64,000 bases of DNA from Psychrilyobacter atlanticus DSM 19335 (GTDB lineage Bacteria; Fusobacteriota; Fusobacteriia; Fusobacteriales; Fusobacteriaceae): contig NZ_KE384547.1 in assembly GCF_000426625.1 (NCBI RefSeq), positions 1,789,159 through 1,853,158 of the forward strand. The letters run 5' to 3'. Within the stretch, counting starts at the first letter, position 1; every line of letters begins with the position of its first letter. Of the stretch, positions 4,007 through 59,559 are shown one piece after another. The notes beneath the pieces are model-generated. The model saw only the letters and a program-made list of their open reading frames with translations, had not been told where the DNA came from and made no database searches. Position numbers and translations under genes: made by a program.

Positions 4007-4924
4007 CTATTTAACCAAAGTTAACCAAGAATCATATTTACTATCCTTCCCTTTGGTCATCTCAAAGAACGCTTCTTGAATTTTTTCCGTAATAGGCCCC
4101 CTTTGACCCTTTCCTATTTTTATCTTATCGACACTGGCTATTGGCGTTATCTCAGCAGCAGTCCCGGAAAAAAATAGTTCATCTGCTGTATATAACGATT
4201 CCCTGGAAATCGTTTCTTCCATAACTTCGTACCCTAGATCACGGGCTATTGTTATAACAGAATCCCTGGTAATTCCAATAAGAGCAGATGACCCCGATTG
4301 AGGAGAATATATCTTCCCATTAGAGATCACAAATAAATTTTCCCCACTTCCCTCACTTACATTTCCAGAATAATCTAATGCTATCCCTTCATCATATCCA
4401 TTTTCCAGTGCTTCCATCTTGATAAGCTGGGAACTCAGATAATTTCCTCCCGCTTTAGCCGCTGTAGGCATTGTATTTGGAGCTAACCTCCTCCATGATG
4501 AAACACAGACATCTACTCCCTTAGTTAAAGCTTCTTCTCCTAGATATGCTCCCCATTCCCAAGTGGCAATCATTGTTTCCACTGGACAGCTGGATGGATC
4601 TACTCCTAAAGAATTATATCCCCTGTATACCAATGGTCTGATATATGCTGTTTTTATCCCATTGATTTTTATAGTATCGAATATTGCTTTTCTTATCTCT
4701 TCCTTAGTATAAGGAATTTCAGTTCTATATATCTTACAAGAGTTATATAGCCTGTCAATATGTTCATCTAATCTAAATATAGCTGTTCCTTCCTCTGTTT
4801 TATACGCTCTTATTCCTTCAAAAAAACTACTTCCATAGTGCATTGCATGGGATAAAACATGGACCTTGGCATTATCATGATCTATCATCTCCCCATTTAT
4901 CCATATCTTTTTAGTATCTATCAT
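4007..4924 (-). CDS. ilvE: Branched-chain amino acid aminotransferase
   Basis: PLP enzyme (fold type IV) that converts 2-oxoisocaproate and glutamate to leucine and 2-oxoglutarate, and likewise acts for Val and Ile. The 305-residue length is typical. Visible family features are FFEGIRAY near residue 35, [10 protein letters not shown] near 160, and [10 protein letters not shown] with [11 protein letters not shown] further on. AGGAGG lies 6 bases before the ATG. It is the last gene of the leu operon, 25 bases after leuB, supplying the final step. It ends just before a shared terminator. Confidence 0.93.
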
Positions 4925-4949
4925 AATTTCCTCCTAAATATATTATCTA

Positions 4950-6008
4950 TTAAATATTTTCTACTATCGAACTTACCATCTCTTTGGTCCCAACTAATTT
5001 AGTTGAATCTGTATAGATATCTTTTGTTCTCATACCATCATTTAAAACCTTCTCCACAGCTTTCTCTATCGCAACTCCCTCCTCCACTAATCCCATAGAG
5101 TACTTAAACATCATAGCTGCCGACAAAATAGTAGCTATTGGATTGGCTATATCTTGTCCCGCTATATCTGGTGCAGATCCATGGATAGGCTCATATAATC
5201 CATATTTTTCTCCTATGCTGGCTGATGGTAACATCCCAATAGAACCTGTTATCATACTGGCTTCATCGGATAAGATATCTCCAAACATATTCATCGTTAA
5301 GATCACATCAAATTGAGTCGGATTTATCAGTAACTGCATAGCTGCATTGTCTACATACATATGATTTAACTCTACCTCTGGATAGTCTTTTGAAATTTCT
5401 ATTACAGTTTTTCTCCACAGTCTCGAACTTTCTAATACATTGGATTTATCCACACTTGTCACTTTTTTGTCCCTCTTCATGGCTGTTTCAAAACCTTTGA
5501 TTGCTATCCTTTTTATCTCCTCAGCGTTATAAGAAAGAATATCATAGGCTGTTCCATCTTCTCTTACACCTTTTTCACCAAAATAAATCCCCCCGGTCAG
5601 TTCCCTGACTATACAGATATCAAGGCCTTCACCGATTATCTCTGTCTTTAGTGGAGAAGCATTTTTTAATGGTTCATAGACTATAGCTGGTCTTAAATTA
5701 GTATATAGCCCTAATTCTTTTCTGATGTTTAAAAGACCTTTTTCCGGTCTATCTTCCCCCTTAAGGTGATCCCATTTAGGACCTCCTACTGCTCCTAAAA
5801 TTATTCCATCACTATCTTTACATATTTCTATAGTTTCTTTTGGAAGAGGAGTTCCGTGATTATCTATAGCAACTCCTCCAATATCAGCATAGTTTATATT
5901 AAATTCATGGTTATATTTTTTCCCTATTTTTTTTATGACACTTACTGCTCCTTCTGATATCTCCTTACCGATTCCGTCTCCCGGCATAATTGCTATTTTG
6001 TATTCCAT
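4950..6008 (-). CDS. leuB: 3-isopropylmalate dehydrogenase
   Basis: NAD-dependent oxidative decarboxylation of 3-isopropylmalate to 2-oxoisocaproate. The 352-residue protein has the MPGDGIGKE start, the substrate-binding [12 protein letters not shown] loop near residue 137, the metal-site region VDNAAMQLL and [12 protein letters not shown], and the NAD site GSAPDIAGQ. Spacing to leuD is short and AGGAGG precedes the ATG. Leucine-specific features (ELTGGIYFG) argue against isocitrate dehydrogenase. Confidence 0.95.
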
Positions 6009-7883: not shown

Positions 7884-9401
7884 CTATATTCTCCCTTCTT
7901 CGTTAAAATAATTATTTATGGCTCCCATATATGCTCTGATACTGGCTTCTACTATATCGGTACTTGTATATCTACCGTTATAATTTCTCTTATCTTTACC
8001 CAGCCTTATGAAGACTTCTCCCTGAGCATCACTACCCTCAGTCACTGCTTTTATAACGTATTTATTTAGTTTGAAATCTACATCGACAATCTTATCTATA
8101 GCTTTAAATGCTGCATCTACAGGTCCGTCTCCAATGGCTACATTTTCTATGTTTTCACCATCTTTTTCCATATTTATAGAAACTATAGGAGTGATTGTAT
8201 TACCTGTATTTACAGTATACCTATTCAATATGTAGGTCTTATTTTTTACTTCCTTTGTTCCGTCTATCAGAGCTTCGATGTCTTCTGCTGATACATCTTT
8301 TTTCTTGTCTGCTAATTCTTTGAACCGTATGAAGATTTCTTCCATCTTTTCCCTGCTCATTTCATAGCCGCATTCCTTTAAATGACTTTCAAAAGCATGT
8401 TTCCCTGAGTGTTTTCCAAGGACCATCTTGTTTTTACTCAGTCCTATGGATTCAGGAGTCATAATCTCATAAGTTTCTTTGTTTTCTAGTACCCCATGCT
8501 GATGGATCCCTGATTCATGGGCAAAAGCATTTTCTCCTACAATGGCTTTATTAGGTTGTACCTCAACTCCTGTTATTTTTGTGATAAGCTGACTGGTTTT
8601 GTATATCTCCTCTGTATTTATCCTATTTTGTCCGGGATAGATATCCTTTCTTACACCCATAGCCATAACTACTTCTTCTAAAGCTGCATTTCCTGCTCTT
8701 TCTCCTATCCCATTTATGGTGCACTCTATCTGTGTTGCTCCTGCCTTTACTGCGGCTAGTGAGTTAGCGGCTGCCAGTCCTAAATCATTGTGACAATGTA
8801 CCGATATATCTACTTTATCTATATTTTTTACATTTTCCCTTACCCCTTTGATTATCTTATAGAACTCGTCTGGGGTAGTATATCCTACCGTATCAGGTAT
8901 GTTTATCGCTGTAGCTCCTGCTTCTATAGCTCCCTCTACTATTTTATAAAGAAACTCTGGTCTTGTTCTTGTAGCATCCTCTGCTGAAAATTCTATATCA
9001 TCACACTTAGTTTTGGCATATGTAACCATCTCTATTGCTTGTTTATAAACCTCTTCAGGTGTCTTTTTTAATTTATATTTCATATGGATATCAGATGTAG
9101 CGATAAATGTATGGATCCTTGGATATTTAGCATCTTTTATGGCTTCCCATGCAGTATCTATATCCCCCTTTAATGCTCTTGCAAGTCCTGCAACCTTTAC
9201 ATTTGTGACGCTTTCAGCTATTGCTTTGACGGAATTAAAATCCCCCTTAGATGAAGCTGGGAATCCTGCCTCTATGATATCTACTCCTAATTTTTCCAAT
9301 TGTCTGGCAACCTCTATTTTTTCTCCTATATTCATACTGCATCCTGGTGATTGTTCCCCGTCTCTCAATGTTGTATCAAATATCTTTATCATCTTTTCCA
9401 T
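7884..9401 (-). CDS. leuA: 2-isopropylmalate synthase
   Basis: Condenses acetyl-CoA with 2-oxoisovalerate, the first committed step to leucine. The 505-residue protein has a TIM barrel starting FDTTLRDGEQSPG, the metal-binding HCHNDLGLAAANSL near residue 200, and HESGIHQHG near 290. The C-terminal regulatory LeuA dimer domain (about 370-505) is present, so feedback inhibition by leucine is likely. GGGAGG lies about 8 bases before the ATG. It is first in the operon, behind the leader peptide and tandem terminators. Confidence 0.96.
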   Translation of the reverse strand: MEKMIKIFDTTLRDGEQSPGCSMNIGEKIEVARQLEKLGVDIIEAGFPASSKGDFNSVKAIAESVTNVKVAGLARALKGDIDTAWEAIKDAKYPRIHTFIATSDIHMKYKLKKTPEEVYKQAIEMVTYAKTKCDDIEFSAEDATRTRPEFLYKIVEGAIEAGATAINIPDTVGYTTPDEFYKIIKGVRENVKNIDKVDISVHCHNDLGLAAANSLAAVKAGATQIECTINGIGERAGNAALEEVVMAMGVRKDIYPGQNRINTEEIYKTSQLITKITGVEVQPNKAIVGENAFAHESGIHQHGVLENKETYEIMTPESIGLSKNKMVLGKHSGKHAFESHLKECGYEMSREKMEEIFIRFKELADKKKDVSAEDIEALIDGTKEVKNKTYILNRYTVNTGNTITPIVSINMEKDGENIENVAIGDGPVDAAFKAIDKIVDVDFKLNKYVIKAVTEGSDAQGEVFIRLGKDKRNYNGRYTSTDIVEASIRAYMGAINNYFNEEGRI

Positions 9402-55811: not shown

Positions 55812-56408
55812 CATGGACACAGTAATAATCTTAGAGACATGATTAAATATATCAAAGAGAAGTTACCAGAAACTTTTATTATTGCTGGAAATGTATCTAC
55901 CCCTGATGCGGTAATCGACTTAGAAAATTGGGGTGCTGATGCCATAAAAGTAGGAATTGGTCCAGGAAAGGTTTGTATTACTAGATTTAAAACTGGATTT
56001 GGTTCTGGAGGATGGCAGCTATCAGCCTTGAAATGGTGTGCTAAAGTTGCTACAAAACCTCTTATTGCCGATGGTGGTTTAAGACATAATGGAGATATCG
56101 CGAAATCTATCAGATTTGGAGCTACTATGTGTATGGTAGGATCGATGTTTGCGGGACACGAAGAATCCCCTGGTGAGCTAGTTGTCAAAGATGGTATCCA
56201 ATTGAAAGAATATTATGGTTCTGCTTCTGAATTCAATAAAGGTGAGCGGAAAAATGTTGAAGGTAAAAAAATATTAGTAGATTATAGAGGCCCTATCATA
56301 GATACTCTGATTGAAATGGAAGAAGATATCCAAAGTTCTATCTCCTATGCAGGTGGAAATAATATAGACGCTCTTAGAAAAACAGATTATCTTATTTTAA
56401 AATATTAA
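55812..56408 (+). pseudogene. guaC: GMP reductase, 5'-truncated
   Basis: The frame reads [20 protein letters not shown], then [36 protein letters not shown] with the catalytic Cys, [21 protein letters not shown], and a normal C-terminus. GuaC proteins are about 325 residues; here homology begins at the HGHS motif and the first ~110 residues are missing, with a stop codon just upstream of the junction. An ATG at 55839 could express 189 residues, but half the barrel would be absent. Probably non-functional. The break lies beside the mal promoter. Confidence 0.85.
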
Positions 56409-57006: not shown

Positions 57007-57050
57007 AAAAAATAACCCTTAAATCACATGTGATTTAAGGGTTATTTTTT
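57006..57050. terminator. Bidirectional terminator
   Basis: Long perfect palindrome (arms about 20, centred on CACATGTG) with T runs on both sides, ending both the rseC-like gene and the small peptide ORF. Confidence 0.92.
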
Positions 57051-57186
57051 AGTTTTGTTCAAATATAAACTTAGATATATTAGTTAGTACTTTAGGTATT
57101 CTTCTTCCTTGACCAATATATTCATTACACAAAACTAAGGTAAAAAGTATTAAAAATCCGATGCAAATCAATATTTTTCTATTCAT
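57049..57186 (-). CDS. 45-residue secreted-type peptide, candidate signal precursor
   Basis: Not in any family I recognise. MNRK is followed by a hydrophobic segment ILICIGFLILFTLVLC (about residues 5-20), then a 25-residue polar tail, NEYIGQGRRIPKV then LTNISKFIFEQN. AGGGA lies about 7 bases before the ATG. It starts 15 bases after the HTH-TPR gene on the same strand and ends in a terminator. Size, signal-like N-terminus and position match precursors of peptide pheromones sensed by TPR regulators; this function is inferred. Confidence 0.6.
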   Translation of the reverse strand: MNRKILICIGFLILFTLVLCNEYIGQGRRIPKVLTNISKFIFEQN

Positions 57187-58409: not shown

Positions 58410-58447
58410 ATTGACCTCCTGAAATGTAACCGTATTATATGATTAAT

Positions 58448-58518
58448 ATTCAGTTTTTTCCACTAAAATTCAATTTTTGATAAAAACTGAATAAAAAGGT
58501 CCTTAAAATTCAGTTTTT
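58448..58518. promoter_or_regulatory. Repeated operator half-sites ATTCAGTTTTT
   Basis: Four copies: 58448-58458 exact, 58468-58478 with one change, 58482-58492 inverted exact, and 58508-58518 exact. Direct copies start 20 and 40 bases apart, two and four helical turns. The array lies between the regulator promoter (TATAAT, minus) and the -35 of the divergent operon. Likely binding sites of the HTH-TPR protein. Confidence 0.7.
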
Positions 58519-58537: not shown

Positions 58538-58566
58538 TTGAAAAATTTGTTTTAACAAAATAATAT
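58538..58566 (+). promoter_or_regulatory. Promoter of the membrane/MFS/CPBP operon
   Basis: TTGAAA (58538-58543), 17-base spacer, TAATAT (58561-58566). The nearest half-site ends 19 bases before the -35, a spot suited to activation. Confidence 0.65.
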
Positions 58567-58671
58567 ACTATATTAACACTTGGAATAAGGTACAAACAAA
58601 TTAAAAAGGAGTAAAAATCTCTTTTTGTTATTTTTTTAAATAACATCAATAAAATTTTGGAGGATATTATT

Positions 58672-59559
58672 ATGAAAAGAAATTATTACATTATGAGCAT
58701 ACCATTAATATCAATTTTAATGGTTACTAGTATTATCAGCTATGTATTTTTAGGCCATTCTATTGCAATTAGGTTACTTACTTTTATTGGAATTACTGAA
58801 GCTGTTTTGGCTAAATTTCAAGGTGAACTTTTATTTAAAAATAGCTTTAAAAAATATTATTCTTTAGTAATGTTATTAATTCCAAGTAGTGTGTTTTTAT
58901 TTTTGAATAATAATACAGAAGGGTTCTATATAGGCTCTTTCATAGGAATAATTATATTCCTTGTTAGAATTTATTTTTCTTTAAAAAAGATACCTATTAA
59001 AGAGAAAAGCAATGATAAGAGAATAAAAATTATTGATATTTACTTTTCCTTAGGTTTTACACTCATAATTTTAGTAAATATTTATTGTACAAATTTTTAC
59101 AACAACCAAAATAGAATAAATTGGGAGACTCCTCTAAATGGAGCTCTTACATCAAATATAAAAATTTTAGATTCAAATATTAAAGTATTAGGTAATAATG
59201 ATCTTTATAGGAAAAATTACTACAACTTACCACAAACATTTATTTTAGACTCTATAAAGGGAATTATCTTAAGTAAAAAAGGTGGATATGAGTTTGAGGA
59301 AGAATTCCAGCCCTATAAAGGAAAGGTAAATAAAATAACCTATAAAAATATTGAAATTTCAGGTATAGAAAATATTATATATTTTAAAGATCTAAATAGT
59401 AAGAAAGTCATTTCTAAATTTATTGCTAATGGAAAGATATTATCAACACCTATAATTGATAAAAACAACCTTTATTTTGTTGCTAATGATTGGAGTTGGC
59501 TGGATAAAAGAAGGAAAAGTAAAATTTATTCTTTAGATATTTCAAATCTTAAAATTTAA
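58672..59559 (+). CDS. Membrane protein with C-terminal beta-repeat domain
   Basis: Not recognised. 295 residues with about five membrane segments (8-28, 31-46, 63-79, 84-103, 121-140). The outer C-terminal domain of ~150 residues ends in YFKDLNSKKVISKFIANGKI then LSTPIIDKNNLYFVAN, which resembles one blade of a PQQ-type beta-propeller. The ATG at 58672 follows GGAGG by 9 bases. First gene of the divergent operon, so probably a target of the regulator. A membrane sensor or accessory factor is possible. Confidence 0.65.
   Translation: MKRNYYIMSIPLISILMVTSIISYVFLGHSIAIRLLTFIGITEAVLAKFQGELLFKNSFKKYYSLVMLLIPSSVFLFLNNNTEGFYIGSFIGIIIFLVRIYFSLKKIPIKEKSNDKRIKIIDIYFSLGFTLIILVNIYCTNFYNNQNRINWETPLNGALTSNIKILDSNIKVLGNNDLYRKNYYNLPQTFILDSIKGIILSKKGGYEFEEEFQPYKGKVNKITYKNIEISGIENIIYFKDLNSKKVISKFIANGKILSTPIIDKNNLYFVANDWSWLDKRRKSKIYSLDISNLKI

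Follow-up and report, generated by a model that had tools for sequence, protein, structure and literature searches.

A probable RRNPP-type receptor-propeptide gene pair in the Fusobacteriaceae

In the NprR-NprX and PlcR-PapR systems of the Bacillus cereus group, both of the RRNPP type, a transcription factor of at most about 400 aa that combines an HTH with TPRs is followed immediately downstream, and on the same strand, by a small gene for a Sec-type propeptide. In ComR-ComS and Rgg-SHP, regulators with an HTH and degenerate TPRs drive bacteriocin or RiPP operons via palindromic operators. In Rap-Phr, a TPR receptor gene likewise precedes the propeptide gene, and some Phr propeptides (e.g., Phr105) carry repeated pheromones, with up to eight identical mature copies known (PMC11343458). 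RRNPP has been described as a Gram-positive (Firmicutes) system, and the large surveys covered Firmicutes and viruses only (PMC10075063, PMC9765709). Searches of literature text returned reports of RRNPP from Firmicutes and their elements and none from Fusobacteria.

The stretch of DNA analyzed here, referred to as the window, comprises 64,000 nt of Psychrilyobacter atlanticus DSM 19335 (contig NZ_KE384547.1, positions 1,789,159 to 1,853,158), a member of the diderm Fusobacteriota. It contains a 45-codon ORF at 57186-57049 on the minus strand, which we consider likely to be one half, encoding the propeptide, of a quorum-sensing pair of the RRNPP receptor-propeptide type in the Fusobacteriaceae. 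Its product reads MNRKILICIGFLILFTLVLC followed by NEYIGQGRRIPKVLTNISKFIFEQN: a Sec-type signal segment (residues 1-20), in which a K/R-containing start precedes an unbroken hydrophobic run of 16 residues (5-20), and a polar tail of 25 residues (21-45), which presumably contains the pheromone. The export signal conforms to a rule of hydropathy and charge, and the presumed cleavage site, between LC and NE, is not canonical. At 45 aa the peptide lies within the 10-100 aa expected of RRNPP propeptides (PMC10075063), and its paralogues measure 41-45 aa. A weak Shine-Dalgarno sequence, AGGGA, is located at 57196-57192 (minus strand); the match is modest and among the weaker ones, with stronger sites in the paralogues (AAAGGAGG). 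The ORF's stop codon borders on a perfect palindrome of 30 nt (57014-57043; -22.8 kcal/mol, z = -8.0), a strong bidirectional intrinsic terminator common to the ORF and a convergent rseC-like gene. The ORF, its hydrophobic stretch and tail, a ribosome binding site and the stop at a shared terminator had all been described in a first-pass annotation of this DNA, and each was recovered. Profile searches with the 45-aa sequence gave no match in Pfam, NCBIfam or PADLOC and a single weak match, of unknown function, among PHROGs. Elsewhere in the window, a 189-aa ORF (55839-56408, plus strand) resembles the C-terminal part of IMP dehydrogenase/GMP reductase-type proteins; its N-terminal part is missing, and it is perhaps a truncated pseudogene.

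What decides the interpretation is the neighboring gene, which went unmentioned in the first-pass annotation. The ORF starts 14 nt past the stop of a gene for a protein of 402 aa (58409-57201, minus strand) with a Cro/C1-type HTH at residues of about 1-60 and a C-terminal TPR superhelix from about residue 75 to 402. The TPRs are recognized by several Pfam models (TPR_2, 2.4e-15; TPR_1, 2.9e-15; and others). Pfam HTH models do not match the window receptor itself, and its HTH is assigned by homology, as residues 1-60 align with four distant members that match HTH_3 or HTH_19; the HTH_3 match of one of these homologues was verified to lie above the curated cut-off. An AlphaFold2 model (pLDDT 79.9) is all-helical: a TPR superhelix preceded by a small N-terminal domain. 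In structural alignments, this model reached Z-scores of 16.7 with RapI, 16.3 with NprR and 15.2 with Rap105; LGN and other TPR proteins scored equally or higher, and in the rankings of both Foldseek and VIA-align, Rap and NprR came behind other TPR proteins. Since the similarity to NprR is thus no better than that to other TPR proteins, the fold search does not single out RRNPP and no fold argument is made. No profile for a named subfamily of RRNPP, such as Rap, Rgg or AimR, was among the matches listed from Pfam, NCBIfam and PHROGs, all of which were to generic TPR, HTH or unrelated models, and the pair is therefore not filed under any named subfamily.

The length of the receptor falls within the range of 250-500 aa used to define RRNPP receptors, and receptor and propeptide are direct neighbors on one strand, as the same definition requires (PMC10075063). 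Four of the five gene-level criteria of that survey apply to the pair, and the fifth, for a signal peptide, does so by the hydropathy rule only. Judged by its genes, the pair would function as an RRNPP system does, and it may also share its descent. Compared with NprR-NprX and PlcR-PapR, it belongs to another phylum and lacks a match to any named RRNPP profile; unlike Rap, its receptor has an HTH; and in contrast to ComR-ComS and Rgg-SHP, the receptor has no NCBIfam Rgg match and the propeptide carries a long Sec-type signal unlike that of SHP or ComS.

In dinucleotide shuffles, an ORF resembling a signal peptide arose no farther than 60 nt from the receptor stop in seven of 5000 cases. Among the 238 genes of the window and the fetched loci, 11 have such a neighbor, every one of them a gene for an HTH-TPR receptor. 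The genome of the window encodes two paralogues of the receptor, 69% and 67% identical to it, both followed by a similar signal-peptide ORF (MKTKYLIFLGVLLLFSITFANKDDGQGRRAPKVPANISEITFELN and MNKKLLIYIGLLMFFTLVLCDEDIGQIGKHPPLTPTSFESN), and the same layout occurs in relatives of the genus (G002, G006 and G007). Receptor homologues were found in 37 of 98 genomes: close ones in the same genus only and distant ones across the Fusobacteriaceae, including Ilyobacter polytropus DSM 2926, whereas the phylum's other families had none. A first contig scan with a single protein gave no match; a second one matched two Fusobacteriaceae MAGs. A mobile-element origin was set aside, as no relative was found in viral contigs or phages and the only plasmid match was the Ilyobacter pILYOP01 replicon; so was a role in anti-phage defense, PADLOC returning no match for the ORF, the receptor or the scanned divergent genes.

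The pairing is not universal. Two receptors, L020 and L023, lack a propeptide, and most of the distant HTH-TPR homologues of the family, from other genera (L040-L055 and L064-L072), have no recognizable propeptide nearby; these are possibly eavesdroppers or receptors of a different ligand. In Fusobacteriaceae bacterium UBA2433, a relative in the genus, two receptor genes with different HTH types stand in tandem (L056:5001-7934), and only the first is followed by a propeptide. One receptor copy of G007 (L076; G007:C2:1121946-1123162) is broken by several stops; the genes divergent to it, for radical-SAM/SPASM, MFS and ABC transporter proteins, possibly form a RiPP cluster.

Codon-level conservation, proposed in the first-pass annotation as a check, was borne out for one half of the peptide and not for the other. 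In four independent pairs, dN/dS is 0.15 for the receptor and 0.20 for the signal segment, a value as low as which occurred in none of 1000 neutral simulations and which indicates purifying selection. For the tail it is 1.73, at or above the neutral rate; the numbers behind these values are small, and that of the tail lies on the margin of what neutrality would give. With the most diverged pair left out, the values are 0.25 for the signal segment and 1.30 for the tail, which leaves the tail at 1.3-1.7, neutral or above. The dN/dS of the whole peptide is not significantly below neutral, and selection becomes visible only after the signal is split from the tail. Conservation of the part that serves export, together with rapid change in the tail, would be expected of a diversifying pheromone.

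The receptors themselves are modular. The HTH of L022 is 88-90% identical to those of L006 and L019 and 40% to that of L007, and in the C-terminal TPRs it shares 80% identity with L007 and 45% with L006; the peptide that goes with it is of L007 type. A second mosaic is L011, with the HTH of L007 and C-terminal TPRs 92% identical to those of L005. Across ten pairs, the distance between peptide tails does not track that between HTHs (r = 0.07) and correlates with that between TPR domains (r = 0.49, Mantel p = 0.01). Part of this correlation may be a matter of physical linkage, the peptide gene lying next to the end of the receptor gene that encodes the C-terminal TPRs; it is at most an indirect pointer to an imported peptide that would bind the TPR domain and change activity. 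It also bears on the idea that the peptide is exported and never imported, acting outside the cell or in the periplasm while the TPR protein senses something else. In its favor, an exported peptide of a diderm cell would otherwise have to cross two membranes each way. We consider it very improbable, since the tail covaries with the TPR domain and not with the HTH, and gene order and orientation match those of known intracellular receptor-propeptide pairs (PMC10075063).

The HTH-TPR homologue is followed by a multi-copy propeptide in four species, I. polytropus among them, that belong to two sister genera, and in each case a signal peptide precedes four to seven identical tandem units (loci L031/L096, L033/L098, L034/L097 and L036/L095). 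The units are SSRRATSGGWAV in seven copies, SSRRAGSGGWAV in six, SSRRSGSGGWAV in six and PSTRRSSGGGWEAVEAT in four. Their sequence varies between species; within any one array, all nucleotide differences are synonymous, and the end of every array coincides with GGW-stop. This pattern would fit a precursor that is processed into repeated short peptides better than any alternative considered. The units, of 12-17 residues with an AV or EAVEAT linker, are unlike the Phr hexapeptides. In the precursor of the yeast alpha-factor, a signal peptide is followed by identical units with short EA-type spacers; the likeness is an analogy only, with no evolutionary relation and a different receptor.

Upstream of the window receptor, an operator-like inverted repeat, ACTGAAT-N15-ATTCAGT (58486-58514), lies between two divergent promoters. 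That of receptor and propeptide has a putative -10 element, TATAAT, at 58434-58439 (minus strand), read from the sequence with no clear -35. The putative -10 element of the divergent operon, TATACT, at 58564-58569 (plus strand), is part of an element conserved upstream of a bacteriocin cluster in G002. The divergent operon, all on the plus strand, encodes a membrane-anchored protein of about 296 aa without a confident family (58672-59559), presumed to be a target of the receptor, an MFS transporter (PF07690; 59622-60860), similar genes for which lie divergent to paralogue 3, and a CPBP/Rce1-like membrane protease (PF02517; 60945-61718). The last resembles a protein in the G002 bacteriocin cluster and may confer immunity. 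Elsewhere in the genome, the divergent transcript of paralogue 2 (L008, about 8980-9100) seems to start with a leader of GAGAGAG...CTCTCTTTTTT, which could form an attenuator-like terminator.

Operators of this kind (type A, ACTGAAT-N15-16-ATTCAGT) precede the receptors of the window, L021 (twice), L012 and L025. Their occurrence is significant against shuffled sequences for L005, L021 and L012 (0-2 of 100). The form ATGAAT...ATTCAT is found upstream of the receptors L007 and L011, and a type B resembling TTGGAA...TTCCAA upstream of L006, L019, L022 and L020; the type-B palindromes of L006, L019 and L022 are individually non-significant against palindrome statistics, and the motif rests on its conservation between loci. 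Operator type goes with HTH type, whereas the type of the C-terminal TPRs goes with the peptide. The strict type-A pattern occurs at seven sites in five genomes, and a reversed control pattern at none. Five of the seven are upstream of receptors, the sixth belongs to a receptor-less remnant and the seventh to the G002 bacteriocin cluster. The remnant, in the window's own genome (L084, about 4800-5110; G000:C2:55072), consists of operator, promoter and a degenerate propeptide frame.

The G002 cluster (L093:323-5927, contig 35) is headed by the type-A operator without an adjacent receptor gene, and its promoter element is similar to the divergent promoter of the window. It encodes two double-glycine peptides, a C39-peptidase ABC exporter (PF03412, 1.3e-40; the sole C39 match in that genome), HlyD and two CPBP proteins. 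Double-glycine leader peptides together with a C39-peptidase ABC exporter mark it as a class-II-like bacteriocin cluster and a proposed target, and a Bacteriocin_IIc match stays below the cut-off. In G009, the receptor gene stands divergent to a region (L092:4428-7482) of three ORFs with a double-glycine leader (MKELQLN..TELNE.EMM..DGG), a CPBP gene and an additional signal-peptide ORF of 41 aa. With the operator at the G002 cluster and the divergent genes of the window and of G009, density-dependent bacteriocin production, immunity or export is the likely output of the module.

Bacteriocin genes in related regulons, and the look of a short hydrophobic peptide with a polar tail, could also suggest that the 45-aa peptide is itself a small membrane toxin or bacteriocin, with the HTH-TPR protein as its repressor or antitoxin. 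We consider this very improbable: the homologous position in the sister genera is occupied by identical tandem units that follow a signal of cleavable appearance, the candidate bacteriocins are encoded by other, double-glycine ORFs and have an exporter of their own, and it is the tail that diversifies, the hydrophobic part being a conserved signal segment. The first-pass annotation had spoken of a pheromone or small toxin precursor. The former is strongly supported by the pairing with a receptor, its recurrence, the conserved signal, the diversifying tail and the multi-copy versions, and the latter finds little support.

Frameshifts in close relatives, which the first-pass annotation had named as evidence against the ORF, do exist. 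In three of ten copies in the genus, the frame is broken just after the ATG by the length of a poly-A tract alone, and the remaining frame is kept. Nine A residues leave L021 and L012 in frame; L010 (A10) and L018 (A8), both of G002, and L011 (A7) of G007 are out of frame, and the rest of their frame is open and similar. None of the three copies linked to a receptor in the genome of the window has such a tract, and all of them are intact. The variants point to switching or to decay at an early stage; explanations are slippage, either of the DNA strands (slipped-strand phase variation) or of RNA polymerase, such decay, or an error in the assembly. Programmed ribosomal frameshifting was set aside, as A10, A8 and A7 need differently directed shifts. 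That the pair is a decaying relic, whose pheromone function was lost in the lineage and whose ORF is only partly under selection, could be read from the frameshifted copies of G002 and G007, the receptor-less remnant L084 and the broken receptor copy of G007. This too is very improbable, given that all three receptor-linked copies of the window's genome are intact and that signal segment and receptors, the latter intact, are held at the low dN/dS values given above. A more far-reaching proposal, for which we see perhaps a modest chance and certainly less than an even one, is that a diderm lineage of Gram-negative type runs RRNPP quorum sensing and, in this genus, keeps its pheromone gene phase-variable, poly-A slippage turning single pheromone genes on and off, so that, with receptors intact, clones would swap the roles of signaller and listener in bacteriocin control.

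For a functional receptor-propeptide pair, we infer secretion, uptake, binding and the direction of regulation as follows. A promoter at about 58440 would give one transcript for receptor and propeptide. The propeptide would exit the cytoplasm via Sec and, after removal of its signal segment near residue 20, would have its tail NEYIGQGRRIPKVLTNISKFIFEQN trimmed to a short pheromone. The pheromone would cross the outer membrane and re-enter by an oligopeptide permease; oppB/C/D/F-like genes, recognized by sequence reading, are present in the genome. Inside, it would bind the concave face of the receptor's TPR superhelix, that is, the concave face of the TPR superhelix and alter the action of the HTH on the inverted repeat at 58486-58514, an operator by conservation, between the receptor promoter and the MFS/CPBP operon divergent to it. 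Relatives would use this operator, or a like arrangement of genes, to command class-II-like bacteriocin genes.

A lineage-wide RRNPP set in the Fusobacteriaceae would raise the question of how short peptides exit and re-enter a two-membraned cell. Which domain reads the peptide could readily be tested with the mosaics of HTH and TPR that occur naturally, and what the mature peptide is with the multi-copy propeptides, whose repeat boundaries are exact. If the proposed reading is true, bacteriocin production in marine, gut-associated Fusobacteriaceae would be tied to cell density.
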